From contig OX485806.1 in the NCBI GenBank assembly GCA_950295325.1, positions 18,600,001-18,664,000 on the forward strand: 64,000 bases of DNA. Reading direction: 5' to 3'. This DNA is from Polytrichum commune (Eukaryota > Streptophyta > Polytrichopsida > Polytrichales > Polytrichaceae). Within the stretch, counting starts at the first letter, position 1; every line of letters begins with the position of its first letter. Under the pieces are notes generated by a model. That model was not told the DNA's origin and made no database searches. It saw nothing but the letters and a program-made list of their open reading frames with translations. Shown piece after piece: positions 4,435-49,782 of this stretch. A program made the translations under genes and the position numbers.

Positions 4435-4463
4435 AAACAACACTATATTCGTTAAATTGAGAC
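4435..4463 (+). repeat. Element A left target duplication and TIR
   Basis: AAAC (4435-4438) followed by AACACTATATTCG and twelve further bases, all matching the reverse complement of the right end. Confidence 0.95.
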
Positions 4464-4599
4464 CTTTTGGGCATTTTGAGACATTCATAGAAATAAGAAC
4501 AAGGATAAATGGAACACATATTGGTGAAAGTTGTAAGATGCGAACACTTTGAAGCGGGTGTTTAGACCAAGAACCCCATTAATAACTCATATTTGTGAT

Positions 4600-4920
4600 G
4601 GTTTAGGTAGGGCAATCCAAACCATAGATCTTATTGAAGGGAAAATCTTAAAACATTCATATTAATGCACACAAAATATGAGAGCTTGTATGAATATGGT
4701 TTAGGTAGGGCAATCCAAACCATAGATCTTATTGAAGGGAAAATCTTAAAACATTCATATTAATGCACACAAAATATGAGAGCTTGTATGAATATGGTTT
4801 AGGTAGGGCACTCCAAACCATAGATCTTATTGAAGGGGAAATCTTAAAACATTCATATTAATGCACACAATAAGACACTCCAAACCTTAGACCATATGGA
4901 AGGGGAAATCATGTCTAACT
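4600..4920 (+). repeat. 98-bp subterminal direct repeats of element A
   Basis: Copies start at 4600, 4698 and 4796, each with GGTTTAGGTAGGG then C(A/T)CCAAACC. A partial copy ends near 4920. The unit core is itself an imperfect inverted repeat. Reverse-oriented relatives (TTTGGAGTGCTCTACC) lie near 21069 and 21112 at the right end. Such subterminal repeats usually bind the transposase complex; here that role is inferred. Confidence 0.8.
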
Positions 4921-5051
4921 TATATTATTGCAAAAAAAAACATACAAAGTGTGGCATGTAAAATGCATATCATGCTAACACCACACATCCATTGGATAGT
5001 GCGACCCAAAATGTTCTTGCCTATGGCCCAAAACCCTACGCCTACTATGGC

Positions 5052-5852
5052 CTATCTAGCCTCGGATACTACCTCTTTTTCTTTTGCTTCATTTTCTTTT
5101 GTTTTTTTTTCTTTTGCCTCTTTTTCTTTTGCTGCAGCTTCTTTTGCTCGCATTGCTTCAACATTCCTGAAAATCTCCGCCCCGCGACTATAGCCATTCT
5201 TGGGGTGACCGCCATCCATAACACATTTTGGAGTCCGTCGGCCACCCGAAATATACGTCGAAGAATTCGAATACGATGAAGTGGATTGTCTCGCATTTCT
5301 GGTCATGGCGTACATATGCTCGAACTCGATGGATGCACTAGACCGCATAGGTTTACGGGTGGGAGCAACCTGCAACGCGTCAATGCAAGACCACATGTGT
5401 TAGTTTAGGGAGGAAGACCCAAACGTGTCACACATTCATTTTTTAAGTGCAAAATGATTGTAATGCGCGGTTAACCAGGTTTGGGGGGGGGGGTTCACCT
5501 TGTCACCGGGGGCGTTCCCGTCGGAGTCGGCGAGGAGGGGCAATGCGTCCCGCAAAGGAATAGGAAGGGTTCCACTCTTCGTTGGCCGAGCGTCCATCCG
5601 CAGCCGCCGTTGAGGTGTACTACTGCCGCCGGGCGGAGAGGGGGATGTCCGGACGCATTTGCGATTTATGCCCTTGAGCGGTGACGGGGACGAAGAATGC
5701 TGGAAGATTTGCTTGGGTGGGGGGCTATCGACGACGCCGGCCTCAAGAGGCTCCTTGGAGTAGTCAATGGTCGACGCGGCGTCGTAGACGGTCTCGTAGA
5801 AGAAGCTCCCCAAGTCCGACTCGCTGACGATGTCAATCGAGGGCTCCAAATG
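5052..5852 (-). CDS. Element A small Ser/Pro-rich gene (two exons seen)
   Basis: Exons 5852-5499 and 5369-5052 join in phase 0 (donor AAG|GTGAAC, acceptor TTGCAG|GTT), giving about 223 residues to the stop at 5052. Element B has the same gene with the same splice junction. Shared blocks are YDAASTIDYS, VV(D/N)SPPP, SPSPL, RRLRM, a Ser/Tyr-rich part, then YSRGAEIFR and a Lys/Glu/Ala-rich helical tail (MRAKEAAAKEKEAKEKK). No known domain is recognised. Conservation between the two diverged elements shows it is a real gene. Its position next to the FCP1-like gene suggests a partner or adaptor role, which is inference only. The 5' exon is unresolved; 5852 follows an acceptor-like TTTGCGCCAG. Confidence 0.65.
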
Positions 5853-5965
5853 CTGGCGCAAAAAAAGGAACGAAACAAAACCCAAGGGAGGAGGGTTTGC
5901 TAGAGCGCGTGAAAATCAAGATACATATGAAGCATATATTACACAAAATGAACGGGCGCGTACGC

Positions 5966-6011
5966 ACACACATACATACATACATACATACATACATACA
6001 CATACAAACAC
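5966..6011. repeat. CA/CATA microsatellite
   Basis: A run of CACACA followed by repeated CATA units, between the Ser/Pro-rich gene and the FCP1-like stop codon. Confidence 0.9.
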
Positions 6012-6021
6012 ACGTAGTGTC

Positions 6022-6834
6022 TCAAATGAGCTTGTTAAATTTCGCGTGAGATAACAACTCTCTGTACAAATGGTCTCGTGGATCCATGTATCTCTCGCCT
6101 ATCGGATTGTTCCTAACAAAATTGTTTACGGGCAGTTCGCTTCCGCAGAGCGCCTGGAGGTATTTACCAAGGTCTAACAAAAATCGGTCCCGGACCTTCT
6201 CGACCGTCCAGGTAGGGCAAACTATGAGGTTGGCCGTCGGGTTCAACATGTTCTTTGCGGCGCTGTCGTCCACCATGAGCGTGTTCTCGCGGGTGGGACG
6301 GACGTCGTAGGGGACGCCTATCAAGGACGGCCGCTGGTCCCCAAAAATGGGCTTCAAGACCTTGAGATATTGGGGGGAAGCGGGGTTGTTTGGTTTTTTG
6401 ACGACTTTGCCGTCCGGTGTGTACAATATTCTACAGGCTTCCTGTGCTAGGACCATGCAGGGGGGCTCGATGCCCTTGAAGATGAACTCCACGACGGCAT
6501 TGGTGTTCTCGGCCGTCATGGAGCTCCAAACGACCACCCACCATCGTTGTTGGGCCAGCTGGAGGAAGGTCCGAAGCCACGGGCGGAGGTGAACTAGCTT
6601 GCTCTTTATGAACGTGGGCGGGCCGTCGTAATTCGTGTCCTCGGGCTTGCAAAAGGGCACCGTGGGGGTCCTCGGGCAATGAACGCATTGGACGAGGACC
6701 CCGTTCAGGTCTAACACCAGGAATCGTTTCTTCGGCCGCGGGGGCGGGGCGGGTAAAATCGGGGGCGCCGCCGCGCTGTCCTCTCCGCTCCTTGGAGAAG
6801 AGCGTCGGGGAGCCGCTACGCTATGCTCCGAGCC
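6022..6834 (-). CDS. Element A FCP1-like (HAD) phosphatase domain exon
   Basis: Open from acceptor CCGCAG|GGC at 6834 to the stop at 6022 (270 codons). After a basic Pro-rich leader, LVLDLNGVL is the FCP1/SCP nucleophile motif, normally DxDx(T/V); Asp42 is kept but the second Asp is Asn. Downstream come VVVWSSM (motif II) and MVDDSAAKN (motif III/IV), as in Pol II CTD phosphatases and the plant DLNG group. The protein ends AKFNKLI, identical to element B. No in-frame ATG exists before LDLNG, and the exon starts in phase 0 like the upstream gene's last donor (7351). It may therefore be a further exon of the ParB/methyltransferase-like gene rather than separate. With Asn in place of the acid/base Asp, activity is uncertain; it may act as a phospho-CTD binder. 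Confidence 0.75.
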   Translation of the reverse strand, partial: GSEHSVAAPRRSSPRSGEDSAAAPPILPAPPPRPKKRFLVLDLNGVLVQCVHCPRTPTVPFCKPEDTNYDGPPTFIKSKLVHLRPWLRTFLQLAQQRWWVVVWSSMTAENTNAVVEFIFKGIEPPCMVLAQEACRILYTPDGKVVKKPNNPASPQYLKVLKPIFGDQRPSLIGVPYDVRPTRENTLMVDDSAAKNMLNPTANLIVCPTWTVEKVRDRFLLDLGKYLQALCGSELPVNNFVRNNPIGERYMDPRDHLYRELLSHAKFNKLI

Positions 6835-7305
6835 CTGCGGATACGATCGAGAGAAAACGGTGGGCGACTTATGTCATGCTATGTCCAAACGAAGCATTAA
6901 AGAAACGAGTGTTCTCGGTGCAAACACAAAACCATTTGATTCATTTTGGAGGGGGTGCAACAAGGGACACAAGAGAGGCAAGAGCATACAACATACATTC
7001 AAACACAGGATACAAGTATATAGGAGTAAAAAATGGCGATTATATTGTATACAATGCTCTATGTACATCTTGATTGGGGGGAGCCGCGTTGAACGATGCG
7101 TTCAAACTAGCCTACTTCTACATCTAGCAAAAATTGAAGAGACGGGCCGCCGTGATGAAGACTTCGTCGCAAGCCGGGGGGTATGTGGACGAACGAATGG
7201 TCGGGGGGATGTGGCGAAGGGCGCGAGTGCCGGGGGGGGGGCGACGTGTGCGTGAGTTTAGGGTAGCTAGGGGACACGACCAAGGCAAGAAGACAAAGAC
7301 CCAGG

Positions 7306-7332
7306 GAGTTTGGGTCGACCGACCCAAACTGA
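7306..7332. repeat. Family-A palindrome, one copy, 3' intron
   Basis: TTTGGGTCGACCGACCCAAA inside the presumed intron between the donor at 7350 and the acceptor at 6835. Copies in the coding part of exon 3 (about 7612-7632 and 7680-7701) read as FGSADPNP and FGSSDPNS in the protein. Confidence 0.9.
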
Positions 7333-7350
7333 GTGGGGTCAGTGCATTAC

Positions 7351-10300
7351 CTCGCCTTGGTCGTGCCTTGACGACGTGGATGCCGTCACCGCGTGCGCTG
7401 CCCCACCTCTGTCACCGCCGCCTCCGACGACGACGTCAGCCGCAACCTGCTCCTGCAAAGGCTGACTGTCAGGCCTTTGTCCCAACCCAACCTCCGCATG
7501 CGCATCATGCATTGGTTCATCGACTGGGTTAGGAGTAGAGGTATCACCAGGCCCTTGCGGGCCTTCAACATCTAGCATGGGCTCGTCCACCGGGGTCTGA
7601 TCGGGGACGGGGTTTGGGTCGGCCGACCCAAACCCTGCTGCTTGGCGAGCGTCGCTCTGGGACGCTGCAACGTCGGCACTGTTTGGGTCGGACGACCCAA
7701 ACATGTGGGGGTCGTCCCGCTGGTGGTGTGGGGGCAAGAGGATGGGAGGCCGGAGCGGCGGGGGTGCCAACGGGCTGGAAGCTCTTGGGACGCGCCAAAG
7801 GTTGGGGTCGTCCACCTGCTGGACGGGCGCGTAAGGGCGGGCGTGCGGCTGCAGCAAATGCGCGAAGCTGAAGGACTGCTGCGGCGCCGGCCGCGGGCAG
7901 ATATCCTGTGGAGGGAAGCCTGCGGGCAAGTGAGGGAATGAACTCGGGGGAGCCATCACCAATCCCTGCGCCAGCATGCCCTGGATCACTTGCGTGATCA
8001 GGTCCGCTTGGGACGGAGGTGGGGCCATCGCCCTTTGCCGTTCCTGCTCCAACAGGAGAGCCCTCAACTCCGCGACTTCGTTGCGGACCGAGGGCTCCTC
8101 GGCGGCGGCCTTTTGCAATCGGACGTGTTGCTCCTCGTCCCGGAGCATCTTCGCGTTGGCCTCCTCCACGGTGAGGACCTCGGGTTTCACCCTCACCATC
8201 TTGGCGAACGCTGTGGGGGAGGCAGGATCCGACCTCAGCCTCTTCGCGAGCTCCATGTCGTCCTCGTCCTCGGAGCTTATGGCGATCGTCTCCTCCACCG
8301 CATAGTCCCCGTACAACTTCTTCCCCTTCAGCATTCGCCGCTCCCTGAAGGTGGCCGTCACGTCCCTCGAATACATGTCCTTCGCGTCGGCCACCGTTAG
8401 GACGGGTACTAGCTTGCTCTGCGGCGTTGCAGCCCGCATGGCCTTCTTCCGCTGAGGGGCCTCGGATTCTTGAGTGAATCCTGTTGCCCCTTCCTCCACC
8501 TCCCCCTCCACTTTCTCTGCTTCCTCCTCCTCCTCCTCTTCCTCCCCCTCCTCCGCAACCTCGCCACCTGCTCCCATAGAGGGATTGCCCGGATGCAACC
8601 CGATGAGCGGCTCTGGCAATTGAACGGGGGCTCGCATGGCGAATTCACCCGGGTTGATTCGCCTCGCCATATCCAAAGGATTCTTGCCCCCCTCGACGAT
8701 CTCTTCGACGTAGGATCCGGGTATCCAGTCGAGGATGTCCATTCTCTTGGCCAGCGCCTTCTGGGTCCTGTAGAATTGAACATCGGCATCCTCCACATAG
8801 GAGTAGATGTTCAACCCAGACATCTGCACAATCAAAATCAATACTATTAGTATCACCAAATGAACAAATAATGGAAAGTGACATCCAAAACAAAATAAGA
8901 ATAGTTAGTTTGGGTCGAGCGACCCAAACTGTGCATGCCCATAGACCGTGCCCCTAGTTTGGGTCGAGCGACCCAAACTAGGTATGCCCATAGTTTGGGT
9001 CGAGCGACCCAAACAATGCATGCCCTAGTTTGGGTCGCTCGACCCAAACCGTCCATATAGTTCCTTCAGGTTATTTGCTTACCATGGCTGCGAAAACCGG
9101 TTTGGAGCCCCCGAAGACGTTGAAGATGCAGTCCCCTCTCTTCGTGAGGGTCCTCATCATCCGCAGGTAGAACTCCATGCGCAGCTCATCCGCGGGGTAG
9201 TTGGCGTACTTCGCCTCGTCGTACAAACTCCTGCTGGTGCCCAACCCTTCTTGGACTTGGAAGAGCTTCTCCATCCTGGCTATGGGATGGTTTGGCACCT
9301 TAAGCAGCTCAGCTTTGTACACAAAGTACAAGCACATCACGTTGACGATCTTCGTCTTCTTGTCTTTCAGCGTGCTATACGCCCCCTCCGCCGGTGCAGC
9401 AACGTAGTGAGATTTTGAGACGGCGTACTCTGGCTGCACTTTCCGCACGATCTCGTACACCTGCTTTGCCCTCCTGTCCTCGACAATCCACAGCCAGACG
9501 TCGACCTCCCTGAATTTGGGGCTGCCGTAATCCACAAACTTCGTGAAGAACGGCTCGTAGAATGGGGTGCTCATCGTCCCCTCGAATGAGGCTCCAGGGA
9601 TGTTCCTGAAGTCTATCATTCCAAAGGGGAAGCGGTCTCCGGCTTTTGTCCTGATAGCCTTCCTGGCATCAGAGCCCGGCCATCCTTGGATCTTGAGAGG
9701 CTCGAGGGTGACCAAGTTGAAGTAGGCGTCGCCCTCGAAGCTGACGATCTTCTTCTCCTTTATAAAGTTGGAGAAGGCACGCGCGGAGTGTTCGGGAAGC
9801 GCCCGGTTCCTCCCCCCCTTCACAAGCTTGGACTTCAGGAAGTCGTCTCCCGCCTCCCTGATGAGTGCCGCCATTGACGCACTGGTGAACTTGTAGTCGG
9901 CTTTGAATGCCCTCCAGTGCGCCTCGTCGACCTCTCCATCCACTATGAGTTTCCTTTCCGGCACCAGCTTGTGCAGCTCCTGGACGATGGTCGTCTTCTT
10001 TTTCCTATTCTCCGTCCATTCTTTCATGGTGTAGCATGAAGGGACGAAGATTTTGGGCTTGATGAAGACGATCTTCGGGTGGACCCAACATCTCTTCGTC
10101 GTCGGCTGCACGTGAAGGATGTGGGACGCCGCTTTTCCCATCTCTGTCTCCGAGAGACCTTGAAGAGCCCTGAAGAACTCCCTCACCAGAGGCTTCATCT
10201 GCTTGAAGCGCGCAGTCTGATTGAAGAGCATGCCGGTGTCGGGATCCATGAGGTCCCCCGTCTCGTGTTTCTCGAAAACACTCTTCCATCTCCCCCACAC

Positions 10301-11988
10301 GGAGTCAGACGCTGTGATCAAATAAATTTCTCCTCTTAGCTCGTTGTACTTCTTCTGCTTGTGGGAAGCGTTGTCAATCGAGGAGAATTTGTTGATCATC
10401 TGGTATTTGAAGTCCTGCACATGAAGTAAATAACACACGTGAGAAAACTGCGAATGCAAGAGTTTGGGTCGATCGACCCAAACTATAAACCTCACGAGAA
10501 AAAGTAAGCAATGTTACAGTTTGGGTCGATCGACCCAAACTATAAACACGACGAGAAAAAGTAAACAATGTTATAGTTTGGGTCGATCGACCCAAACTAT
10601 AAACCTGAATAAAAAAGGTAAACAATTCAAGAGTTTAGGTCGATCGACCCAAACATACTCACCTCCCATTTTGGGTTCTTGTCTTTAGCATTCTCCCTTT
10701 CCTTGGGAGGCCTGCCGTAAAACTCCCACACCTCCCTCGAGGCCATGATGTTCCGAATCCAGGATGCCTAGTACGCCCTCTTTTTGTTTCCCATGTTGAA
10801 GAAGCGTGAGATGTCGGTTAGTACGGTCTCGTTGTCAGACCAAACCACCAATGCCTTCCACACCTTTAGCTTCTCCTTTTGGTTGTTGGGGTCGTCCCAC
10901 TCGGTCATCAGCTGAATTTTTTTAGACGCCTCCACACTGTGCTGGCCGTCAATCAGCCAGAAGTCGCCTTTACATATTGTCGGCCACATTTCAGGCGTCG
11001 GCATTCTCTTCAGCCCTTGCGGCATGACAACAATTGTCTGCCTGTCGTCTTTGAATTGCCCTCCCAAGATCTGAGCGACCATCCAGTCGACGTAGGCGTC
11101 CTCCTTGGCTCGGACACACTTCTCAGGTGGCGCAAGGTGGCACTGTGCAATGTTCACCTCGAACTTGAAGTCCCTGCCCATGAAGAAGCAATGCAGGCAC
11201 TTTGTCTTGCAGTTATCATTGATTTTCTGTATCTCGCCTGCATCCACCTCTTGGCCAGGTTTCGGCATCCGCAGCTCCGGGGAAACTGGCTCGGTGGTCA
11301 TGACGGAGGACTCTCTCGCCCTCTTCGACGGGGTCGTCTGCCGGCTTCCGGACGGTGTGGGCGTCTCGCTGTCAGCCGGCGTTCCTGTAGTGCTAGGCCG
11401 TCTGGAGTCTGCAGGGACCGGACACGGTATTCTCACAGTTTGGGGTCTGGACGACCCTGCGCCTTCTTCCGCCGTTGCCTTACGCCTCACAGGCTTCTGC
11501 GTTTTGGCTTTACTTTGCAGCGCCTTGTTCAGGACCGTGATGGCCTGTTTCAATTTTGTAAACCTACTTGCAACCTTCGTGTTGGTTACATTGCCATCTA
11601 TGAAAATTGTCTCCGGTTTAATTGTTTCAGGCTCCACGCATGACTCCTTGGCGTATATAGTGTCGAATGACTCGGAGAACTGGTGCATGAACATGTGGGC
11701 GTTCTGCACGGCGGAGTTCTCGAGAATTACGTCCACGTAATCCCCGAGGGCTTGGACGGACGCAACCTCCCATCCTGTCAATGTTGTCCAAGTGTGGTTC
11801 TCGTGGGTCCCTACTTTTACCACGAACAGGAGCTTGAATTGGGAGCCCTTTACAACCTGAACTGACCACGCAAGGACAAGCCCATCCTTGGGCACGTATG
11901 AGTCGTCCTGGGGGGTTTCATACTCCTGCCATATTACGTCTGGCGCGAGCATAAAGAACCTTTCTCCAGGTCTCTTCTTGGGGGCCAT
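7351..11988 (-). CDS. Element A ParB-like / DNA-methyltransferase-like / coiled-coil fusion gene, amber-interrupted
   Basis: Exons 11988-10663, 10414-9083 and 8823-7351 join in phase 0 at GT-AG borders. The ATG at 11988 directly follows an acceptor, so there is a leader intron. Exon 1: N-terminal globular part, Pro/Thr/Ser-rich linker, then LIDGQHSVEAS (10933-10953), resembling the ParB/sulfiredoxin DGxHR motif with Arg replaced by Ser. Exon 2 resembles a beta-class DNA methyltransferase: a motif-IV-like MIDFRNIPG where DPPY would be, then NVFGGSK (9101-9121) like motif I, continuing into exon 3 with YVEDAD (motif II acid). Exon 3 also has an acidic SSEDEDDMEL patch, VRVKPE and a coiled coil. 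Phage ParB-methyltransferase fusions have this order. The missing DPPY suggests DNA binding without methylation. TAG at 10768-10770, where element B has GAG, truncates the product. Confidence 0.65.
8905..9053. repeat. Family-A palindromes, four copies in intron 2
   Basis: Four copies of TTTGGGTCG-NN-CGACCCAAA at about 36-49-bp spacing lie in the 259-bp intron 9082-8824. The centres are AG or CT, so the arms are palindromic but the 2-bp centre is not. Confidence 0.95.
10459..10655. repeat. Family-A palindromes, four copies in intron 1
   Basis: Four copies of TTTGGGTCGATCGACCCAAA (the last with TTTAGG) at about 57-bp spacing fill the intron 10662-10415. The segments between them also repeat (ATAAACC(T/A)... 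AAAAAGTAAACAATG), so the intron grew by tandem duplication. Confidence 0.95.
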
Positions 11989-12012
11989 CTGTAAGTCCAG
12001 AAATTAAAACTA

Positions 12013-12613
12013 TTAGTTTCGGTCGATCGACCCAAAGTAGTCGACAATGCATTTAACATTTGGTGGAAATGGAACAAATGTATTTTATTGACCAGCCCGA
12101 ATTCAAGGTTTGGGTCGATCGACCGAAACCTTGAACACTTGGTGGCTCGTGCTCCTTGTGTTCTAAAATAGACCTATGATGGTTCCTCGTTAGAGAGTTT
12201 GCGTGTATTTAGTATAATATATGTGTATGTACATGATTTCATCAATTTCAATTATGGACATCTGAAGGATTTTTTGATACTTTACTTGTTCAGACGTCGT
12301 GTTTGGGTCGGTCGACCCAAACATGAGGCTTTGTTTTGGGTTTAGGTTCCCAATCATGAGGCCATGTTTGGGTCGAACGACCCAAACATGAGGCTTTCTT
12401 TTGTGTTTAGGTTCACAGACATGTGGCTTTCTTTAGGGGTCAGGGTCCCAAAATGAGGACATGTTTAGGTCGGACGACCCAAACAATAACTTGTGTTTGG
12501 GTCGACCGACCCAAACAAGAGGCTGTGTTTGGGTCGATCGACCCAAACAAGAGGATGTGTTTGGGTCGATCGACCCAAACAAGTGGCTGTGTTTGGGTCG
12601 TCTCCCCAAACAT
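12013..12613. repeat. Family-A palindromes, nine copies in the leader region
   Basis: Upstream of the ParB-like start codon, near 12015, 12107, 12300, 12365, 12463, 12496, 12527, 12559 and 12590. The centres vary (AT, GT, AA, GA, AC) and the outer arms have point changes. They lie in the 5' leader/intron region of the minus-strand gene. Confidence 0.95.
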
Positions 12614-12729
12614 TATTATTTTATTATATATTTTAAACTTGGCATGAAGCATATACATTGCTTATGCGTTGTGTATGCTACAAACCATGAATTAAACATC
12701 TCACATTGTGGATATAAGAAAACACAATA

Positions 12730-13130
12730 CCTTTGAAAGATGTGTTGTAGACACTTTGGAGTAGATCTGGTTCTGTGGCTTCCAAACAATTATAAATTCT
12801 CTCAAACAACTCTTGAATCTCTGAACGAACTCCTGAACCTCTGAACCAACTACTGAATCTCACACACAACTACTATACCTCTGAAACGAATTCGAAATCT
12901 CTCAAGCACTCCTTAAACAACACAAACTCCCAAAACTTCAAAGATATAACCACTCCTGAATCTCACAAAAAACTGCTGAATCTATCAAACAAACCTAAAA
13001 CAACACAAACTCACAAAACGTGCACCTCACAAACACTCTTGAATCTCACAAGAACTCCTGGACACTCTTCCAACTCTCTTCCAACACTCTTCCAACACTT
13101 TCCAACAACTCTTCCAACTCTTTCCTTCAC
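12730..13130 (-). repeat. Low-complexity leader of the minus-strand gene
   Basis: Imperfect units such as CTCTGAACCAACT and CTCTCAAACAACTC repeat every 15-35 bases. Element B has a similar stretch (41860-42230) built on CTCTCAAGCTTC at the same place relative to the ParB-like gene. On the minus strand this would be a purine-rich 5' untranslated leader. Confidence 0.55.
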
Positions 13131-13269
13131 CCTCACGCCCTAAAACCTTCCTCCGTGTGTTTCTGGTTTTTTCTAAACTCTTCCTAACTTCCAAGGTTGC
13201 ACAAGTGCTATTCTGTTGTAGAGCAAGAGAAAGGAGGGATATAGAAGAATGAAATACAAGCAAAACGCG

Positions 13270-13530
13270 GGAGAAAGCAAACTAAAAGCTACACATGCGC
13301 CTGAATCGCCACGCCGCTTCGCGAAAGCGGCGCTTTAGGAGAGGCGGCGCTTCCAAGCGAGGCGCGGAGAGTAAGAGAGAAAGAATGAAATTTTGTGACG
13401 GTTGGGGTTTTGTTTGCCTCGGGAATTGGCCCCCAACCGCGCGAATAGGGTGCCCACAAGATTAGGGCACCCACGGGAATAGGGCTATAGGGAACCCTAA
13501 ATTCGAAAGCCCGACTCTAAACCCTTAGCG
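13270..13530 (-). promoter_or_regulatory. Putative promoter region of the element A minus-strand gene
   Basis: A GC-rich island (CGCCACGCCGCTTCGCGAAAG and similar) in AT-rich DNA just upstream of the low-complexity leader. Element B has a counterpart at 42270-42500. Promoter activity is inferred from position and conservation of layout; no clear TATA box was chosen. Confidence 0.35.
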
Positions 13531-13534
13531 GGCC

Positions 13535-16500: not shown

Positions 16501-16640
16501 CCAATGAGGAAGTCGGAGAAACGGAGGTGGATAGTATAAAGGGACGCACCCCCCAAAAGTCTGTCATTTTTTGCTCTTCTCCCACTCTTGAATTCGTAGA
16601 GAGAACTCTTAGTCGGAGCTATACTTCAAGGTTCGTGCAT
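13535..16640. other. Gene-free spacer of element A
   Basis: No gene is seen. It contains a minus-strand SINE-like fragment (about 13750-13830), a bridging motif near 14171 (GGTTTAGGTAGGACGACCCAAAC-like, between subterminal repeat and palindrome), a diverged tandem duplication (about 15135-15560 and 15608-15925) and telomere-type TTTAGGG runs at 15341-15365 and 16088-16107. Confidence 0.6.
15135..15925. repeat. Tandem duplication of about 480 bp, two diverged copies
   Basis: Both copies share AATAAACCAT(G/C)GTTCA, GTAAATCGGA(T/G)AAGCACAAC and CATGTTGTTATTCATTGTTC in the same order. The second copy is shorter. Confidence 0.6.
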
Positions 16641-16803
16641 GCTGCCGTTCATTAGCACTTATCCACAGCATGCAAGTTCATGAGCACCTATTCACAGCAT
16701 GGAAGCCCACCGGGAACTTTGCAATGAGCTCAAAATCATATGGGATTTCGGATTATCCGCCGCATTATCCGCCGGATTTTGAGGGTTTCAGTGTGACTCT
16801 TAT

Positions 16804-36211: not shown

Positions 36212-36329
36212 CTGTGATGAACAACTCGACTAGTTTAATTCTATGATCCAATAATGAAATTTTGCGTAGAAAATGAAGACGGTGCATTATGGGGAAAGAC
36301 GAGGAAGTGAGGAGAGTGCAAGGAAAATG

Positions 36330-36510: not shown

Positions 36511-36890
36511 TGCAAAAATGAACATAATCTCATCAACATATACAATATACGAGAAGGGGTCGAGGGCAGAGAATTTGAAGCAACGCGATGCAAATAACAT
36601 AGGCTCATATATTAATCCGTTGAATATTTACATTTCTCACGTGATAGTCTATCACATTTTCCTAAGGCAAAATGATGTCGTGTCCTACAAAACTGTTCGG
36701 CTCTAAGGGGGACCGCTGAAGAGGGCTCTCGCAAGGCCACTGGATGTTGATGAAGAGAAAAACATCGCGATGTTAGAGAGGTTACGAACGCGCGTTCATA
36801 AAAAAATGGTATTCTCAGAGGAGAGTTACCTCGTCATCGGGGGGAGGGGCAGCGGCGCTGGACCGAGCAGCAGGTCCCTCTTCAACGATT
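36460..36890. repeat. Internal duplication of element B, copy 1
   Basis: Shares the order GGGTCGCACCC, a palindrome, a long AT-rich middle, GAGGGCTCTCG, then CGTCATCGGGGGGAGGGGCA and CCGAGCAGCAGGTCCCTC with 45590-46020 (there GGTCCGAACAGCAGGGCCCTCC). One copy is at the 3' end of the ParB-like gene, the other in the leader of the transposase. Confidence 0.7.
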
Positions 36891-39800: not shown

Positions 39801-40771
39801 TCCGTCGGACGGGATGTCAGCCCCTTCGGCATGACGCAGACGGTCTGCCTGTCCCACTTGACGTTGTTCATTAGATTATTTATCTGCCACTTCACACCAC
39901 CGCTCTCGCGAGAGCGAACCACCCATTTGTTGGGGGACATCTCGCACTTAAAGCAGTCCACGTTGAATGTGAAGTGGCGTCCCATGGGCCAGCAATCCTT
40001 CGAGTAGTTGTTGAAGTCTCGAAGGATCCTCGTGGCCTTCACAGCGTCAGGGTTCTCGCCCTTTTTCAAGGGGGTGGGCATTACGACAGGCGAGGTCACC
40101 TCCGCGGTCTCTGTTACTCCCGATTTCTCCATCTCCTCCCTTGTCCTCTTCGATGGCGTGGAGTGTCTACTGGGGCCCTCCGTCGCCCTGCTAGCGGAAG
40201 GCACAGGCCTGGGTGCACTTCTAGATCCTCTTGCCCCTGATGTGGATGGTTTCCTAGGGCTCTTCTTCTTCTTGTTTGCCTCAGTGACCACACTGTTGTA
40301 TTTGGAGATGTTCAATGCCAGGGCGGTCAATTTCCTTGCCGTCCAGTATGGGCTCAACGCATATTTGGAGAAGAGGCCGTCCAGGTCGAAGTGCTTGGCA
40401 TCTTCCGCTACGTTATTGGTGGCGTATTGGTAGGAGAAGGTATTTTTCTGGAAATGCAACAAGAGGTTGATATGATCCTTCTTGTTCTTCATGTCCAGAA
40501 TTACATACTCCCCCTGGGCCTCTATGGACTCTATCTCCCACGTCTTCATTTGAACCCACTATTCGGGCTGGTCCGGTCTTGTCTCCAGCTCGTAGGTGAA
40601 GCGCATGCAGAAGAGGCCGTCCCCGATCTTCTCTGGCAGTGCCGTCCACTCCCCCATGAAGTCTTCTTTGGGGACATAGTTGTCGTTGCCGTTATCGTCT
40701 AACACCGACTTTGGGAGGCCATCGACCTTCACCGCGAACATCTCAATGACGCTTCTGCTTGATCTTGCCAT
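36889..40771 (-). CDS. Element B ParB-like / DNA-methyltransferase-like / coiled-coil fusion gene, amber-interrupted
   Basis: Exons 40771-39476, 39354-38029 and 37887-36889 join in phase 0, at the same positions as in element A. The ATG at 40771 follows an acceptor. Exon 1: N-terminal domain, basic Pro/Ser linker (SPRKPSTSGARGSRS), then IIDDQHSLEAF, the ParB-like motif with further loss (DGQH to DDQH). Exon 2: ALIDFRGIPGAS in the motif IV place, VWLWIVE, and YNVCGGSK like motif I; exon 3 continues with SFIEAIDEED (motif II acid). Exon 3 has SDEDEGDMEI, VKEEAL, a coiled coil and a Pro/Gly-rich tail. TAG at 40559-40561 interrupts exon 1 at a point open in element A. The stop at 36889 falls inside a palindrome copy, and the donor seen in A (GAG|GT) reads GAG|GA here, so the 3' end may be altered. 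Confidence 0.62.
37915..38010. repeat. Family-B palindromes, two copies in intron 2
   Basis: TACGAACGTGCGTTCGTAAA near 37915 and a full copy near 37989 lie in the 141-bp intron 38028-37888. Confidence 0.95.
39387..39471. repeat. Family-B palindromes, two copies in intron 1
   Basis: Near 39389 (centre CA) and 39449 (centre TT), inside the intron 39475-39355. Confidence 0.95.
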
Positions 40772-40799
40772 CTGCAACAGAATATAAACAATTAGTGAC

Positions 40800-41435
40800 T
40801 TTACGAACGAACGTTCGTAAATGACATGCATATCCCACATACTACGCAGTGTTAATGCGTCTTTGCAATTGATGTAATTATATTTACGAACGTTCGTTCG
40901 TAAATGAGGGGTTGCAAGATCATATAATTTTTTAGTATTGAGTTTACGAACGAGCGTTCGTAAAAGATATGAAGATCAAAGAGACTACTCGTCATGAATG
41001 TATTTGTAATATATTTGGTTATTTTTACGAACGATCGTTCGTAAAAGATATAGGTTTTATAGATTTGGTTTTATTTACGAACGTGCGTTCGTAAGTATGT
41101 CCATTTGGTCTATCTTGTCGGACATTTGGTTGATTTATCTTTCGTAAGTACATGTGATTTGTTTTATTGGTGTTCGCAAAATTATATTTGTTCTTTAGAT
41201 ATTCATAGAGGTTCATATTAAAGTTAAGGTTCCATCTGAGTGATATTTTGAGTATATTTACGAACGTGCGTTCGTAAATATAGATCATTTCAAAGAACGT
41301 GGAGTGCGTATTTACGAACGCACGTTCGTAAATGGAGGTTCGGTATGCAGTGTATGTCCATTTACGAACGAGCGTTCGTAAATGGAGGTGTGTATGCAGT
41401 GTATGTCCATTTACGAACGAGCATTCGTAAATGTG
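40800..41435. repeat. Family-B palindromes, about nine copies in the leader region
   Basis: Near 40802, 40884, 40942, 41022, 41072, 41258, 41312, 41360 and 41411. Arms TTTACGAACG and CGTTCGTAAA are mostly intact; centres include TT, AG, AT, TG, CA. This is the same relative place as the nine copies at 12.0-12.6 kb in element A. Confidence 0.95.
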
Positions 41436-41699
41436 ATGGTTTTGGGATCCCTGTCCGTACGTATATGTATTCGTATATATATGAATACGTATACGTATGT
41501 ATATGTATATAACTGACTTATTAGCTACTCTGCTTGCAGCCGTGCCTGCAAAATTTTGGTCAGAATGATGCAAATCTTGAATCATAAAGCAATTGAGATG
41601 CAGAATGAGATGCAGAATGAAACATGAAGAAGAAAGTGATAATTCACATTGCATGTAACAAAACAAATTGAATTCAAGAAGCAACATTTTCAGAATGTG

Positions 41700-42300
41700 A
41701 GAGGAGTTGGAAAGGATAACAAATTACATTGAAATGCTGCAGACTTCAAACCCTACTTCTTCTCTTTCTGAAAATCCCAGAAATCCTCACAACTGCACAC
41801 TCAATTGCCTTTCAAATGCACACTCAGATAACTCTATAATGCAGACCTCAAGCCTTCACAGCTTATATACAAACCCTAGTATACTCCCATGTACACAAAA
41901 CTCACAAGCTTGTAGCTCTCAAGCTTCTGAACTCTTAAGCAAACCCTTAACTCTCAAGCTTCCCTAAACTCTCAAGCTTCACTTCTGAAGCTTCCCTAAA
42001 CTCTCAAGCTTCAACTCTGAAGCTTCCTTAAACTCTGAAGCTTCTAAAGATCACCCTCAAGCTCTCAATCCGAAACTCTGAAGCTTTCCTACTCAAGCTC
42101 TCAAGCTTTTGAAACTCACAAACTCTCACACTGAAAGCTTTCACAAACTCACAAGCTTTCACAATGAAAGCTTTCACAAACTCAAAAGCTTTTACACAAG
42201 CTCTCAATCTGAAATCTCTCAAAACTTGCAACAAAACTAATTTAAAACTTCAAGACTAAAAATAGCAAGAGCTTCGCTCTCTAAGCGCTCCGCTCCTCCT
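41700..42300 (-). repeat. Low-complexity leader of the element B minus-strand gene
   Basis: ACTCTCAAGCTTC and related words repeat about every 25-30 bp from 41880 to 42210. The counterpart in A is at 12730-13130, with the same arrangement but different words. Confidence 0.55.
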
Positions 42301-42500
42301 CTCCTCGAAATGACAAATGAGGAGAAGAGGAAGGGGCGCGGGGAGGTAGGTGCGCCGCTAGGGTTTCCCAGCACCTGCCACGTGGCACAACTCCACTGGC
42401 TAGGGCTGGGAGGGAGATGGGATGGGATGGTATGGGAGGTGATGGGAAGGGATGGGATGGGATGGGATGCGATGGGAGATGGGAGATGGTTGTATATTGC
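42270..42500 (-). promoter_or_regulatory. Putative promoter region of the element B minus-strand gene
   Basis: GC-richer block with GCTCCGCTCCTCC and a (GATGGGATGG)n run at 42410-42490, just upstream of the low-complexity leader. Inferred by position only. Confidence 0.35.
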
Positions 42501-44670
42501 AACCCTTCATGTTATTCTCATGCTTTGACATATTTATATGTAATGGACGCGTTTAGGGCATTATCTTGAAAAGCTTAGTTCAAATACATGAATTTTACTC
42601 GTTTTATTTCCTTAGTACCTCTACATTTGGATTCCTTGTAAACATATTTTAGAAAAATATACTCAGTTAATTCGTAATAAACAATGCATGTCATTTCCTA
42701 GGTTGTCAATGTAGAATCCACCCCCAAAGATATGTATATGGTGTTTTAAAATATAGTTTATGTAAGAGCTAGATATCTTTCAATTAATTCGATGGTTCCT
42801 CAAATAAATATTACATGCAAAAAGGAATTCATAATAATATGAGATTGCGCAGAGTTGCTATACGATAGGATGCCAATTCAAGTTCCAATATTAGGTGTTA
42901 GCTTGAACTAATGCATTTCTGGAGTGGTCAACTATTTTGCTAGCATCAACTACGAGCTTGCGATGAATGAAGTTAGTGCAATTACAAGGGTTTTTGAGGA
43001 GTCACTATTGTTTGTGTGTGTAATGTATCCTAGTAACAATCTAAAACCTAAACCCAAATACCACATACACAACTTTCACAAACCCTAAACCCTACCCCCA
43101 AACCCTAACCGCAAACCCTAAACCCTACATCCCTGCATCTTTTTATCTTACCAACCTTTCTTATATGTGACCATGTTGTTTTCTGAGGGCAGGTCAAATT
43201 GGTCTACCAATGTTGGTTGGATGGAGAATGCTTAATTCCGTTCATAACAACTATAATAATTGATAATGATGCCAATTGTCATTTTCACATTCCAAATTAA
43301 TAGATTTGAGATAAAACTTTGGTTTAGGTGATAAGTGAAATTTCAAATATTTCCTCTTTCACCTTAATAGTTCTGAGTGAAATTTCATCACACAATCCAC
43401 GATCTTATTATAATAACATGCATGTCTTAAGACTTCAATTTATATCAACACTTTAAGCTATGATGATGCACATCCTTCTCATAGGATGCAAAACATATAT
43501 TAATTGTAAGTACATACTATTGTATGCACCATTCCAAATTAATAGTGCATTTCCCCAAACCCTAAAAGTCTATTTCCAATAGGACCTCAACTCATTTAAT
43601 CATGTGTCAACTTAAACTAACAATTGAACAATGCATTCAACTATAAATATCACCAATGATCTAATAAACATTTAACCAATGTATATCCGTACCCTTACAA
43701 CAAGTGGACGAAAATTCAATTTCCAATAGAACGTCAAACACATAATAATTATAACTATGATTCAACGTTACGGTAGCTAGTATGGTTTCAAGTCTCAATG
43801 ATCATTACGCTATCATACTATGCAGCATTACAAATTGATTAATCCTTCCTACTCATGCCATGTTAATTCCTTATTTTCACACCTAGATACCATTTGAAAG
43901 AAGACCTAACTTACATATATTATTAGGTATAATTAGTTCATAGTGTCCTCAATCTACCCTAGTGCAAGCCATTATGGATTAACCTGATTTTTTAGTTGTA
44001 TTCATGCACTTGGTGACCATATTACGGTCATTTTTTGATGTGAAACATATGATACCTATAATTTTAGGGGCGTCCGCAACATGTTCTTAGCCACTCTGAC
44101 CTCATTGTGTGTGTGTGTGTGTATATGTATATATATGTATAGATATATATCTATGACTTCGACATTCATAACTTTATTAGACATCAATTGTCAATTAACT
44201 TGGACTTTATACCTTAGTCGCAAATCATTAAATATTCAATGTTAACCATCTCCATATTTAGACATTATGTGTATATATATATACATATATGTATATACAT
44301 ATATTTCGATGAGACCTTGGTCACAACTAAGGTGTGCAACCGATATATATATTTTCAATATGTTGGCGTGCATGCAAGGCATGTTCCATACATGACAGTG
44401 CTATTTATATAATTCCGCATGGATAGAATGGGAGATTGTTAGGTCAAAGAAGGCGGCGGGAATCCGCTTTTTAAAGAGCATCCAAGGGATTTTGAACCAG
44501 CGGGGTGAAGTACTTAAAGCTCTTCCCCCCACAACAAAGGTCTTTTCAGCGGCACATGCAAGTGTGCGCTCTACAGACCTCACCGAACGCGCTCAAGCCA
44601 TTTGGTGTGCGCCAACCCTACACCACCCAGGTACAGTACAGGCTGTATCTACCGCATATACCGCCGTAAA
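42500..44670. other. Gene-free spacer of element B
   Basis: AT-rich, no gene. It holds CCCTAAA telomere-type repeats at about 43075-43130, a TG/TA microsatellite at 44107-44155 and another TATA/ATAC run at 44270-44305. It corresponds to the 13.5-16.6 kb spacer of A. Confidence 0.6.
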
Positions 44671-44677
44671 TACCGGA

Positions 44678-45645
44678 ACTTTACGAACGCACGTTCGTAA
44701 AGATGAGGAGCTTCAGGTTTAGACAAACGATTCATGGCAAGGATTTACGAACGTGCGTTCATAAATTCCACATGAGAGCATGTTCTGGATTGAGCTACTC
44801 ATATGGATAGTCACATGCACGTAATCCATGTCAGTTATTTACGAACGTGCGTTCGTAAATATGCCTTCGAGGACCATGCAGACATATTTGACCCTTATCT
44901 ATTGGTACTTGATGGTCAGTAATTTACGAACGTACGTTCGTAAATCCCACCTGAGAGCATGTTTTGGATTGAGCTACTCATGGATAGTCACATGCACATA
45001 ATCCATGGCAATTATTTACGAACGTGCGTTCGTAAATATGCCTTCGATGATCATACATATATATTTGACCCGTATCTATTGGTACTTGATGGTCGGTAAT
45101 TTTATGAACGTGCGTTCGTAAATCCCACAGGAGATCATGTTTTGGATTGAGCTACTCATGGATAGTCACATGCACATCATCCATGGCATTTATTTACGAA
45201 CGTGCGTTCGTAAATATGCCTTCGAGGTTCATACATACATATTTGACCTGTGTTTATTGGTACCTGATGGTCGGTAATTTACGAACGTGCGTTCGTAAAT
45301 CCCACATGAGAGCATGTTCTGGATTGAGCTACTCATATGGTTAGTCACATGCACTTAATCCATGACAGTCATTTACGAACGTGCGTTCGTAAATATGCCT
45401 TCGAGGATCATACATACTTATTTGACCCGTATCTATTGGTACCTGATGGTCGGGAATTTACGAACGTGCGTTCGTAAATACATGTCATTATTGTCTACGC
45501 ATCCAGCAACACATCTTCATTCATGCACATCAGTATGGCAGTAATTTACGAACACAGATTAGCAAGAAAAATATGCTCATCGCTCGTCCGTGAAGGATGT
45601 GAACACGGGGTCGCACCCATTTACGAACGTCCGTTCGTAAATGGG
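44678..45645. repeat. Family-B palindrome tandem array upstream of the transposase
   Basis: About eleven palindromes. A unit of about 178 bp with two palindromes repeats four times; palindromes followed by ATATGCCTTCGA start at 44837, 45014, 45192 and 45371. Those followed by (C)CCACATGAGAGCATG alternate with them. Most centres are TG. The last copies near 45542 and 45620 are looser. The array sits about 600 bp before the transposase ATG, as in element A. Confidence 0.95.
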
Positions 45646-46020
45646 TGGGTACGTAAAAGTCAACATAATCAAATTCACAATATGGAGGTGCTCAGTGTTC
45701 AAAATATTGTTGGAGTTGATTCATGCATCATCTACATATTTACTACTTTTGTGCTTATGGACAAGTGTTCTCTTGTGATAGTATATCGCGCAGGTTCCTA
45801 AGTCAACATGGTACTTTGACGTACAAAACCGATATTCCTGAGGGTGCTCTCAGATGAGGGATCTCGAAGGCCGCCGGATGCACATGGAGAAGTTACTGAG
45901 GTCACGAACTCGCTTTCGTAAATGCATGTGGCGTTCTTGGATTTCTGATTTCGTCGTCGGTTGTATGGGGACAGGCGGTGGTCCGAACAGCAGGGCCCTC
46001 CTGGACGACTAACGATTGTT
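45590..46020. repeat. Internal duplication of element B, copy 2 (transposase leader)
   Basis: Diverged copy of 36460-36890 placed upstream of the transposase. It could supply the first, untranslated exon of the transposase transcript; an acceptor-like GCATTGCAG lies at about 46200. Confidence 0.65.
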
Positions 46021-46243
46021 CTCCTCTTTGTCCATGTATTGTTTACATTAGTGTACAACCTAGACGTATGCTTAAAACGTTTTTTTGGGACGCGCGTTCG
46101 TCTTTGTGCGTGAGGTTCTCCAATGGTGCATCAAAATTTGTTTGTCAATTTTGGGCCATTTATCTCCACATATATTCTATCCTCTCTTGTATGCATTGCA
46201 GTGGTGGTTGGGTTGATCATTTCCTGGTGGTTGGTCTAGCGGT

Positions 46244-49200
46244 ATGGCGTTGCATGTGGGTGATAGTTCATTGGAGTTGTCGACATATGCATCGTCATCC
46301 GATGCTGAATGTGAACTGTCTTCCCCGTCGGCAGATAGTAATGGTGTGCCAAACGTGAGGGGGGTGTTTGTGGATACATCCTCCCATGAATCTTTGGAAG
46401 TCCACGAACAATCTCTGCATTCCGGAGATGACCACGATGACATTCCGTTGTGTGCCGGTTTCGGGAGGGAGCAATGGGTTGGCCTTGATGTCGTTCTACT
46501 CAACGAGGTTGGTGTCCCGGTGGCAGATGGCATATGTAGAAACTCCAATCCCCGTGATTGTGTCGATGCCAACGCCCTAGGTCTCGATGATGTTGGCGTG
46601 TGCATCTTGAACTCTTTGCTTCCGGTAGAGGTCCCGGTGACATGGAGATTTTCCTTACGTCGATGGCTGCTTCGTCAAGTTCTACATGAGGAAGTGAGTT
46701 TGTGGGATCATGAGCGGCGGCATAAGCAAACACAATTAGCTTTGTTGGCCACAACACGTCCTCGCAAAGGCCTCCGTACATATGATTCAAACCGTGTGCC
46801 TCGCGGAGATAAGGAGCGTCGACGGGATCGGCTTTTGGGGGACGAATCTATCCGTCTAGTGTCCGGCAAGGATTGTTGCGCGAGGAAATGTTGCCAATTT
46901 TTTCCGCGGGAGAAAATTAGATCTCTGCGTCAAGAGATGTGGCTTGCGGATTTTCGTATGAGGTCGGCTAAGAAACTCGAGGTCCACAGAAATTTGCACC
47001 TTGATACCCATGGGCATAAGGTGGTGACACTTGAGAATGTTGATGTGTGTTGTACAGTGTGGTATACCATCCATGCCGTCTCCAAGGCTGACTTTTATAG
47101 GTTTCGAAAGTGTTCATCGTTGGGTCGCCGCTCTCGATTTCATGGCAACTCGGACACAAAGAAACCTAGGGAGGCTACACTGCAAGCGTCCGCGACACTA
47201 TCCACCATCATAGTGCCATTGGCCGATGCAATGCCCCACAAGACGAGGACATTGTCGTCAGGGGAGAAGGTTGTTCAAATGGTGTTGCCCACGGGCACAA
47301 AATGGAAGAACATCTTAACAGACATCAATGAAGTGGGTCGCATAGCGGGATGTGGGTCCATTTCTTTGTCCAAGTTGAGTGTGATTAAAAACCAGCAGTT
47401 TGCGGAATACATTCTGAAAAGACCCGGGGACAAGTTCGCTAGATGTACGACGTGTGAAAAATACAAAGGTCTTCGAGATGCCCACCCCATAGGCACTGAA
47501 TCTCATTCCAGACACCAGAAAAAATATATTGAGCATGTCAACAATCAAGAGGCACACCGTCAAGATTACTATAAGAATCGTGCTCTATCCATAATGAGGC
47601 CCACAGAGGTTCTAACAGTCATCCATGATAAAATGGACCACGTCAAAACCGCATGCCCTTGTTATGCACGCAAAATAAAGGCCACGGATGATCTCTTCAA
47701 GTTGCCCGTAGCTGTCACAGGTTTGTATGAAATCACAACTACGTGTTTAAAGTCTATCCAATTTTCTTGGGTGTGTTTGGCAAATGTCCAAAATCATACA
47801 TCCGTTTAGTGGTTTTTTGATTATTTTGGTCACGCATCGTTTGTTTTTTCCAGGTATGATTGCCCACGGCCATGGGGACGTAAAGTATGTCCATTATGGT
47901 TTGGATTTTTACCCTAGGGATGCTAACCATACGGTGGGTTCATTTGCAAAATTGTTGCGCGATCTTGAGAAGCCACCGGTATATTCTTCCCGTGCACTTT
48001 TTGATGGTTGTGGAACCACATCCCTTTATGAGGCAGTGCTTGCGGGGAAGGAGGTTTGTATGTCGTCATTGCCAGAACCACCCGGAGAACCCATTTGTGC
48101 AAAACCATTGCCTCCAACTCTCCACGTTCAACTTGATAATTGTGCGAAGGACAACAAATGTCGATACGTATTTTGTTTTTGGTCATTGCTCGTGGCGAAA
48201 GGAATCTTCAAGGAGGTGTTTGTGTCTTTCTTGATGGTGGGACATACACACGACGACATTGATGCATCATTCGGACGGTGGAGCATGAAGTTGCATGAAG
48301 AAGATTTTCCAACCATACCTCTTCTTATGAAATCGTATATGGATTTGGACCATATGCCAGTAATTCCGCACTTGATTGAGGAAGTACCAGATTTCAAGGC
48401 CTTCATCAAGCCATACATGTTGAAGGGAGGGGACCGTTTGGTGGGGCATACCAGAGCACAACAATTCCGATTTTATATGAGGGACGATGGTCTCCCGGCC
48501 ATGCAATTCAAGCTTTTGTGCACATCTCCTAATTGGGGCCCGGATGATGGTATACTCGTATGGCGTCAAGACAATGATGGGAAATGTTTGGTCCCGGATG
48601 GGGAACCAAAGCCTTGCAAACCCGAACCCATGAGGAATGGGCTGGAAATCATCAAAGGCATATCCGGATTCATTGAATATTGGAAAGAGTTGTGCGAGGA
48701 GGACATCACAAGACATGTTAGAGATACCCATGAACCGTTGATCGCGTATTGGGATCGCATTCGCTCAGCCTTGATGACACTTGGTGGCGACACCCGTACG
48801 ACTTTGACACAAGGATTTTGGCCACAAAGTCGTTTGACGGTTGTCGAGTCCGATACTATGTTTTTCAGCAATGGAGACGTTCGTGAAGAGTTCGCAATGG
48901 ACGAGCATTACGTTGGCCCTGCCCGCAATCGACCGGCACCGTCGTTTCGTGTAGGTGTTGATTGCCATGAAGGGTATTTGGTCCTCGTACGAGCAGGGGA
49001 TGAGGAGCATTCCAAGCCAATTTGGTTGGTAAAAGCATTGTCTTCACCCAATTTTGTTCGAACTAGCCCCAACTTTCGTCAAATTGAGGTGGAATATTGT
49101 CATCCAAGCACTAAAGACCAGAACGTGCTCCGCACTTATTTAGGTTGGGACACCAAAAAGAATTTTAAGTGGACAGTGGACTCAGCGTACACACCGGTTT

Positions 49201-49373
49201 GGATAAACACGGATACTATACTTTGTGCTTGGAAGCCGCGCAAAGGTTCCAACACAAAAGCAATGACCATCCCCCAAAAACATATAGATTTTGCCAAAGA
49301 CAACTTGGCACGTATTGCAGCTGCGGAAAATGACGCCGAGAATGGATATGAAGCGGAAGATGGAGATGGGTAA
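46244..49373 (+). CDS. Element B transposase (two exons, 998 aa)
   Basis: Exons 46244-47720 and 47854-49373 join in phase 1 inside VTG (donor ACAG|GTTTGT, acceptor TTTCCAG|GT), as in element A. Homologous along its whole length to the A transposase: KDCCARKCC and FARCTTCEK Cys pairs, VIHDKMDHVKT (Asp462/465), QLDNCAKDNK (Asp587), VGHTHDDIDASFGRW (His623-Asp629). D1-D2 spacing is about 125 residues and D2-D3 about 40. No stop or frameshift is seen. The ATG at 46244 begins MALHVGDSSLELS; the acidic, Ser-rich N-terminus is poorly conserved with A, while the core is strongly conserved. Probably still able to make protein. Confidence 0.87.
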
Positions 49374-49749
49374 ACATAACATAGGTGAAAGTTAACGGCG
49401 GGAAAAAACATTAGTGCTTAGTAGTTTTGGTTTTTAATAGACTTAGTAGACTTGTCACACTCCATTGTGGTATACGTTTGGGATGTGCCATCCAAAACCA
49501 TAAGAACCTTACTTATGGGATGCGCACCCCAAACTCTATAATGACATAAACCATTTGTTTTTTAGATTCGCTTGTTATTTTCCACATGGAGTTCACGTTT
49601 TCATTATAATTGCAATTTTCTATTTTTAGTATTAGGAATATTCTTTATGTGCGAATTTTTAAATTGTCATGTTCTTGATGTTCCCAACATTCCATATGCC
49701 CACAATATTGGCATCCCAAACTATGGGCATATTTTATTTTGAGACTTTC
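49374..49749. repeat. Right subterminal region of element B
   Basis: Contains imperfect inverted motifs GTTTGGGATGTGCCATCCAA (near 49478), ATGGGATGCGCACCCCAAAC (near 49516) and GGCATCCCAAACTATGGGC (near 49711). A hairpin GAGACTTTCAAAAGTCTC (49741-49758) lies against the TIR. Confidence 0.6.
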
Positions 49750-49782
49750 AAAAGTCTCCGATTAACGAATATAGTGTTTCAA
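49750..49782 (-). repeat. Element B right TIR and target duplication
   Basis: Inverse of the left end, then TCAA. Confidence 0.93.

Follow-up and report, generated by a model that had tools for sequence, protein, structure and literature searches.

Giant DUF7869 transposons of the moss Polytrichum commune carry family-specific palindromes that go with the lineage of an element-encoded protein

Bacterial ParB-parS systems have clustered palindromic sites beside the gene for the binding protein, which carries a DGxH-type motif. Discrimination between self and the rest of the genome by selfish DNA has been worked out, to our knowledge, mainly for the VANDAL elements, whose VANC proteins are DUF1985 proteins. 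In Arabidopsis, short family-specific VANDAL motifs are bound by the element-encoded protein and loss of methylation has been shown; the unrelated element AT9TSD1 carries VANC6 motifs and is affected by VANC6 (PMC5735166). In Ectocarpus, the giant Sola1 element Sola1-1_Ec32 has a ParB-like and N4C/N6A methyltransferase gene opposite its transposase, and the same account mentions green and red algal ParB-methyltransferase cases and suggests binding to the own transposon (PMC12477816). Here we describe two related giant DNA transposons, elements A and B, in a window of 64,000 nucleotides from the moss Polytrichum commune (contig OX485806.1, positions 18,600,001 to 18,664,000). Each is filled with copies of its own palindrome and carries, on the strand opposite its transposase, a multi-exon gene (hereafter the divergent gene) with ParB-like and methyltransferase-like motifs. 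The half-site of the palindrome goes with the lineage of this protein, and the elements probably encode a dimeric reader that co-evolves with its palindrome, VANC-like in its working but not a VANC.

The palindrome of element A, TTTGGGTCG-NN-CGACCCAAA, was found at 32 sites with at most three mismatches, all within 4991-17484, and that of element B, TTTACGAACG-NN-CGTTCGTAAA, at 28 sites, all within 36344-45641, close to the 30 or so copies per element of the initial annotation. With at most one mismatch there are 30 sites in A and 23 in B. Chance origin is excluded, since dinucleotide shuffles give expectations of 0.03 and 0.00 sites, respectively. The annotated absence of either palindrome from the other element and from the flanks was likewise confirmed: at one mismatch or less, there were no sites of the other element's palindrome in A or B and none of either in 31.3 kilobases (kb) of window flanks, apart from a single lone A half-site within B, at 39535. 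The two central bases are free to vary in both elements. The clusters, listed without strand, are as follows:

16808-17484: tandem array of A, 11 palindromes in units of about 65 base pairs (bp), before the transposase
12017-12579: leader of the divergent gene of A, 8 palindromes
10463-10653: intron 1 of A, 4 palindromes
8909-9048: intron 2 of A, 4 palindromes
7309-7701: 3' region of A, one palindrome at 7309 (3' side) and two in the exon-3 reading frame (7613 and 7682)
44680-45641: array of B, 11 palindromes before the transposase
40800-41431: leader of the divergent gene of B, 9 palindromes
39386-39470: intron 1 of B, 2 palindromes, one adjoining the splice donor
36344-38009: intron 2 and exon-3 region of B, with the intron-2 site at 37988 and others in or below the exon-3 frame, several with one to three mismatches

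Placement is parallel between the two elements, as had been claimed for the leader, introns, 3' side and pre-transposase array. With at most two mismatches, A and B hold 8 and 9 sites in the leader, 11 each in the array, 4 and 2 in intron 1, 4 and 1 in intron 2, and one each on the 3' side; the first two exons and the transposase are free of sites in both elements. The stop-to-stop exon-3 frame holds two such sites in each, those of B lying at the frame edges and being perhaps non-coding, and one extra A site lies in the middle of the element. In both arrays and introns, the units repeat in tandem with lengths of about 57, 65 and 85-94 bp. The intron palindromes are conserved islands: in intron 1, pairwise identity was 0.881 in sites versus 0.617 outside them among four A copies (two of which lack one site), and 0.990 versus 0.748 among five B copies. 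In the A array, seven units at 16872-17279 have a one-base change in one arm, giving a hybrid of TTTGGGTCG and TTTCGGTCG half-sites.

Genome-wide, exact pattern counts over 407.8 Mb in 64 contigs, with reversed patterns as controls, gave 9731 copies of the A palindrome and 2909 of the B palindrome; the controls gave none. A degenerate pattern for the transposase motif VGHTHDDID matched 370 and 356 exact places on the two strands (controls 0). The first 100 of these places listed all lie on contig C1, and seven loci with other codon variants were chosen and fetched. In six of the seven the palindrome is a different one; it always has a 2-bp centre and forms an array ahead of the transposase:

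Family D: half-site TTTACGGACG, two loci
Family C: half-site GTTCCTCTCG, one locus
Family E: half-site CTTTCACTCG, one locus
Family O1: half-site ATCCACTCG, one locus
Family O2: half-site TCCACTTG, one locus, no central CG

The seventh locus, L035, is a decayed relative of A, in which degenerate A palindromes occur at the leader and both introns. A central CG ends the half-sites of six of the seven genome families (A, B, D, C, E and O1). We compared 12 half-sites with 22 element and flank sets at one mismatch or less, and the resulting matrix is nearly diagonal. Four A-type, six B-type and two D loci, and one locus each of C, E, O1 and O2, hold only their own palindrome, others appearing only as one-mismatch neighbours; the decayed A relative retains one near-A site. 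Confinement of each palindrome to its own family does not hold for the A palindrome, which also occurs in MULE-like loci: these account for 17 of the first 100 A places listed, and two more fall in another locus. Palindrome families may be adjacent or nested, with an A-type gene fragment beside a B element (L022 from 7009 on) and an A-type terminal repeat adjoining the O1 array (L032 from 2806 on).

Families D and C extend this pattern. The D palindrome, which is present in the leader, both introns and the array, occurs 1147 times genome-wide (control 0); in the listed range, its array lies upstream of three of five D-type transposases and of none of 14 others, the family labels in this upstream comparison and in that for C having been assigned by hand from codon variants. 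The C palindrome occurs 71 times (control 0). On contig C1, C arrays lie 0.5-6 kb upstream of four of the 100 listed transposase sites, exactly those with one codon variant, and of none of the other 96; two of the 23 C palindromes on this contig are about 33 kb from the nearest C-type transposase. Additional C palindromes occur 10-15 kb upstream of the array and are separated by about 1.6-2.6 kb, which roughly resembles the 1.5-kb leader/intron spacing in A, and because of this resemblance exons 1 and 2 were expected between them. The predicted interval contains, both on the expected strand, a 521-residue open reading frame that matches the exon-2 profile (163.9 bits, E=6e-51 among the reading frames of that locus, about 25% identity) and one that matches the exon-1 profile (126.5 bits, E=9e-40), as the palindrome spacing had led us to expect. 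A view that families C, E and O2 are without a divergent gene was wrong for C, whose gene sits further upstream.

The initial annotation also suggested testing whether the palindrome tracks protein divergence across more family members, and protein trees as well as families D and C support such a link. Homologous exons from public sources and metagenomes often read on into the presumed intron, where their tails spell a palindrome that served as label. On the exon-2 tree (100 rows, 40 labelled, six of these from this genome), seven half-sites require seven changes, the minimum being six; shuffled labels required 21.7 on average and none of 200 shuffles was as low. A first exon-2 tree of 52 rows gave five changes for six states and the exon-1 tree (53 rows, 28 labelled) six changes for six states, in each case against 10.6 for shuffled labels with 0 of 200 as low. 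Labelling for the trees was restricted to a fixed set of candidate half-sites, since de novo decoding of palindromes from the protein tails yields many chance matches (74 matches versus a mean of 27.6 in shuffled tails). Rows P0095, P0096 and P0147 and exon-2 pieces shorter than 240 residues were dropped from the final exon-2 tree, and exon-1 pieces shorter than 230 residues were likewise removed before counting; loci L034 and L035 were left out of the trees. Ambiguous labels were omitted (P0043, P0094, P0107 and P0144), the hybrid-looking P0118 was unlabelled, and the labels of P0067, P0090, P0112, P0120 and P0122 were assigned by hand according to the tails.

Close relatives show the change of half-site at its smallest. 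The sister proteins P0029 and P0031 are one base apart per half-site in the first tail site, and P0025 is set apart from P0023, P0024 and P0026 by a single half-site base. Between B and D, almost every site shows a single-base difference per half-site, and identities are 72-91% in transposase pieces, 33 and 50% in exon-1 pieces and 53% in exon 2. Such concerted change at many spaced sites is a stronger sign of a trans-acting reader than the trees. Altogether, eight half-sites come with a putative reader gene, namely TTTGGGTCG, TTTGGGCCG, TTTCGGTCG, TTTCGGGCG, TTTACGAACG, TTTACGGACG, TTTACGnCCG and GTTCCTCTCG; at three further half-sites (CTTTCACTCG, ATCCACTCG and TCCACTTG) the reader gene was not read.

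The coding layout is alike in A and B, with a DUF7869 transposase on the plus strand and, on the minus strand, the divergent gene followed by a NIF-phosphatase-like domain:

4439-21279: element A, a giant DNA transposon with AACACTATATTCG as terminal inverted repeat, target site duplication AAAC at 4435-4438 and 21280-21283
17648-20748, plus strand: A transposase, two reading frames, the second with DUF7869 (PF25273, E=5.6e-41)
10662-11988, minus strand: A exon 1, ParB-like by motif only (GDFWLIDGQHSVEA), in-frame stop at 10768-10770 in the window copy
9080-10414, minus strand: A exon 2, methyltransferase-like by motif only (FNVFGGSK), no Pfam match
7339-8904, minus strand: A exon 3, stop-to-stop reading frame, the part that diverges fastest
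6022-6873, minus strand: A NIF/CTD-phosphatase-like domain (PF03031, E=1.1e-14), perhaps part of the divergent-gene transcript
33943-49778: element B, giant transposon related to A, terminal repeat AACACTATATTCG as in A, target site duplication TCAA
46217-49373, plus strand: B transposase, two reading frames, DUF7869 (E=1.4e-40)
39476-40786, minus strand: B exon 1, ParB-like by motif only, frame open only from 40558 down in the window copy
38029-39351, minus strand: B exon 2, methyltransferase-like by motif only
36889-37956, minus strand: B exon 3 reading frame, stop to stop
35444-36229, minus strand: B NIF/CTD-phosphatase-like domain (PF03031, E=3.2e-16)

The boundaries, the shared AACACTATATTCG ends and the 4-bp duplications support the annotation of A and B as two related giant transposons. 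Insertion of B with duplication of TCAA is confirmed by a paralogous copy of its flank (53961-54000) that is uninterrupted exactly at TCAA. Two further elements read through both ends have CATA and ATAA, such that all four elements read at both ends have a 4-bp duplication (AAAC, TCAA, CATA and ATAA). Duplication of a 4-bp target site is a feature of the Sola1 superfamily, and the elements read share it. Family membership is well above the gathering cut-offs for both DUF7869 (140.7 and 139.3 bits versus 26) and the NIF/CTD phosphatases (54.9 and 59.9 bits versus 21.8). The usual motif of NIF/CTD phosphatases is DxDx(T/V); both domains here have DLNGV in its place, and their phosphatase activity is doubtful. 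Identity between A and B is 64% in the transposase, 43% in the NIF domain, 36% in exon 2, 31-35% in exon 1 and 26% in exon 3. The window copies are not intact, given the in-frame stop in A exon 1 and the interrupted exon-1 frame of B; exon-1 copies without interruption are present among B-type loci and metagenome relatives.

The initial annotation named the divergent gene ParB/methyltransferase-like. A ParB-type motif was recovered, ID[GD]Q[HY]S occurring in 35 of 46 exon-1 proteins (fragments included), but Pfam, NCBIfam and PDB gave the name no support. Sequence and profile searches of exons 1-3 against these databases returned nothing convincing, and weak Pfam matches near E 0.001 point to unrelated names. 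Exon 1 has no significant profile match to ParB (ParBc/Srx fold) and no methyltransferase profile matches exon 2. The amino-methyltransferase (N4C/N6A) motif [DNS]PP[YFW] was absent from all 101 proteins retrieved with exon-2 queries and all 46 retrieved with exon 1, counting fragments. The ParB and methyltransferase labels of A, B and D are names given by motif.

In the model that we propose, this large, fast-evolving protein, ParB-like and methyltransferase-like in layout, would bind the palindrome of its own family as a symmetric dimer, the target being two 8-10-bp half-sites around a 2-bp spacer; both its role as binder and its dimeric binding are what we infer. With dozens of sites occupied in the leader, the introns and the promoter of the transposase, the protein would act on same-family copies only, either keeping them unmethylated and expressed, in the manner of VANC anti-silencing, or controlling the two genes of the element; anti-silencing or self-regulation would be the purpose. 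A shift in protein specificity would take nearly all sites of the family along, spread by tandem duplication and conversion. More tentatively, the system may be a self/non-self addressing code across a group of giant plant transposons, in which a catalytically dead, methyltransferase-derived ParB-like reader, linked to a CTD-phosphatase-like domain, reads a 20-22-bp family palindrome, readers having switched among at least eight half-sites.

Several observations weigh against a co-evolving, element-encoded reader. Pfam, NCBIfam and PDB sequence searches recognised no DNA-binding domain in the divergent protein. CpG retention (0.75-0.92 in coding parts of A, B and D, 0.71-0.72 in those of C, E and O2, and 0.52-0.60 in non-coding parts) does not show hypomethylation, since it does not clearly depart from that of the neighbouring P450-like gene (0.77) and the flanks (0.43-0.66). 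The divergent gene was recovered for A, B, D and C, and none was seen at the fetched E, O1 and O2 loci. On the exon-1 tree TTTCGGTCG arises twice and TTTCGGGCG is not a clade, and on the exon-2 tree the D labels are intermingled with those of TTTACGnCCG; linkage by descent moreover accounts for some of the tree signal, because sites and gene share one DNA. A few sites are mixed: P0029, which bears the A label, shows a hybrid palindrome at its second site, and among D leader sites some match B in full or in one half. For two of the five D-type transposases within the listed range, no exact D palindrome lies upstream. Lastly, a second element class with shared sequence (loci L025, L026 and L028) carries the A palindrome, and its gene has no significant homology to that of A, including in profile-profile comparison of exons 1 and 2.

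In this MULE-like class, A palindromes lie between two transposase reading frames and ahead of a gene with a DGNH motif. The reading frames of L026 are MULE-like by eye, with a SWIM match below the cut-off (E=0.076). A methyltransferase-like motif follows the DGNH gene in the next stretch (L027), which has three weak NCBIfam matches to methyltransferase-type families (E 0.035-0.2), and the best exon-1 stretch in the non-significant profile-profile comparison is the DGxH motif. The element may use the protein of A in trans or its own protein. Spans of this class are L026 832-4734 and 7600-10000, plus L025, L027 and L028; a 64-bp tandem repeat and the palindrome CCTGTGCGTTAACGCACAGG are also present in L026 and L028.

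The palindromes might instead be bound by the transposase, for self-regulation or assembly of a transposition complex, and an array does lie just before the transposase in the sampled DUF7869 families with a readable promoter side. We regard this as unlikely: B and D half-sites differ despite 72-91% identity of their transposase pieces, whereas A copies down to 83.5% share one; the sites are not placed towards the element ends but lie deep in the interior and in introns of the divergent gene; and the A palindrome is also on a MULE-like element with a different transposase. Alternatively, the element might encode an active DNA methyltransferase that marks copies of that element, with the palindromes as its substrates. 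This would suit the Ectocarpus Sola1-1 gene, whose account mentions algal transposons and this idea (PMC12477816), and the central CG of A, B, D, C, E and O1. It is nevertheless doubtful, as the catalytic motif [DNS]PP[YFW] and exon-2 methyltransferase profiles were missing from the searches described above and the O2 half-site TCCACTTG has no central CG.

That the palindromes work as RNA hairpins, in splicing or as small-RNA decoys, appears very improbable. Many sites are in introns and leaders and are probably transcribed, yet the arms are almost invariant across aligned introns and show no compensating changes, one arm is altered without a matching change in the other in seven array units, and the array sits ahead of the transposase reading frame. 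Tandem duplication and gene conversion that homogenise meaningless satellite words within each family would account for the repeat units of about 57, 65 and 85-94 bp, but are hardly credible as the whole explanation: the intron-1 palindrome is kept while neighbouring letters have diverged, the A, B and D palindromes recur at four to five places up to 10 kb apart in differing surroundings, and the palindrome is symmetric with a 2-bp spacer in every sampled family.

Around the elements, cytochrome P450-like reading frames identified by eye at 28069-30567, between A and B, are probably a host gene. Element B is flanked by a 341-bp inverted duplication (98% identity; 33155-33494 and 50194-50534), and parts of its flanks (30574-33942 and 49779-50206) are a diverged copy, at about 87-89%, of 51784-54401. 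There is a direct repeat of about 870 bp (98% identical) at 50837-51702 and 58034-58912 and a TTTAGGG run at 15340.

In literature searches, no work turned up on DUF7869, on palindrome-bearing giant transposons of mosses or moss transposons of the A/B kind, or on bryophyte anti-silencing or palindromic target arrays of ParB-type transposon genes. The accessory gene appears to be already known in kind, and the co-diverging family-specific palindromes appear to be new. They suggest that the VANDAL logic recurs in another group of transposons, whose transposase is different, whose sites are longer and symmetric and whose natural specificities are many; because some of these are one base apart per half-site, a recognition code could be readable from sister proteins. 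If the addressing code holds, the readers would form a natural library of programmable long-site DNA binders, exploitable by unrelated elements. Candidate target sites are also now available for the proposed self-binding of ParB-methyltransferase transposon genes.

The described systems each share part of this arrangement. Like ParB-parS, clustered palindromes adjoin a candidate binder gene with a DGxH-type motif; unlike it, there is no ParB profile match, the setting is a eukaryotic transposon and no ParA partner was seen. Like Sola1-1_Ec32, A and B are giant elements with an accessory gene on the strand opposite the transposase (PMC12477816). They differ in that the available text on Sola1-1_Ec32 mentions no site arrays or family-specific palindromes (PMC12477816), and in that neither ParB nor methyltransferase profiles match the proteins studied here, in which the catalytic motif was not found. 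VANDAL/VANC, named in the initial annotation as the closest concept, is a fair functional analogy. As there, motifs are enriched in introns and upstream regions, occur in tandem repeats and diverge together with the protein, and the MULE-like element with the A palindrome resembles AT9TSD1 with its VANC6 motifs (PMC5735166). VANDALs are MULEs with a VANC-type protein and short directional motifs (9 bp for VANC21; PMC5735166), in contrast to the DUF7869 transposase, the ParB/methyltransferase-like gene without known domain and the 20-22-bp palindromes found here. Clusters of family-specific motifs in non-coding parts are common to both, with the MULE-like loci that carry the A palindrome as the exception.

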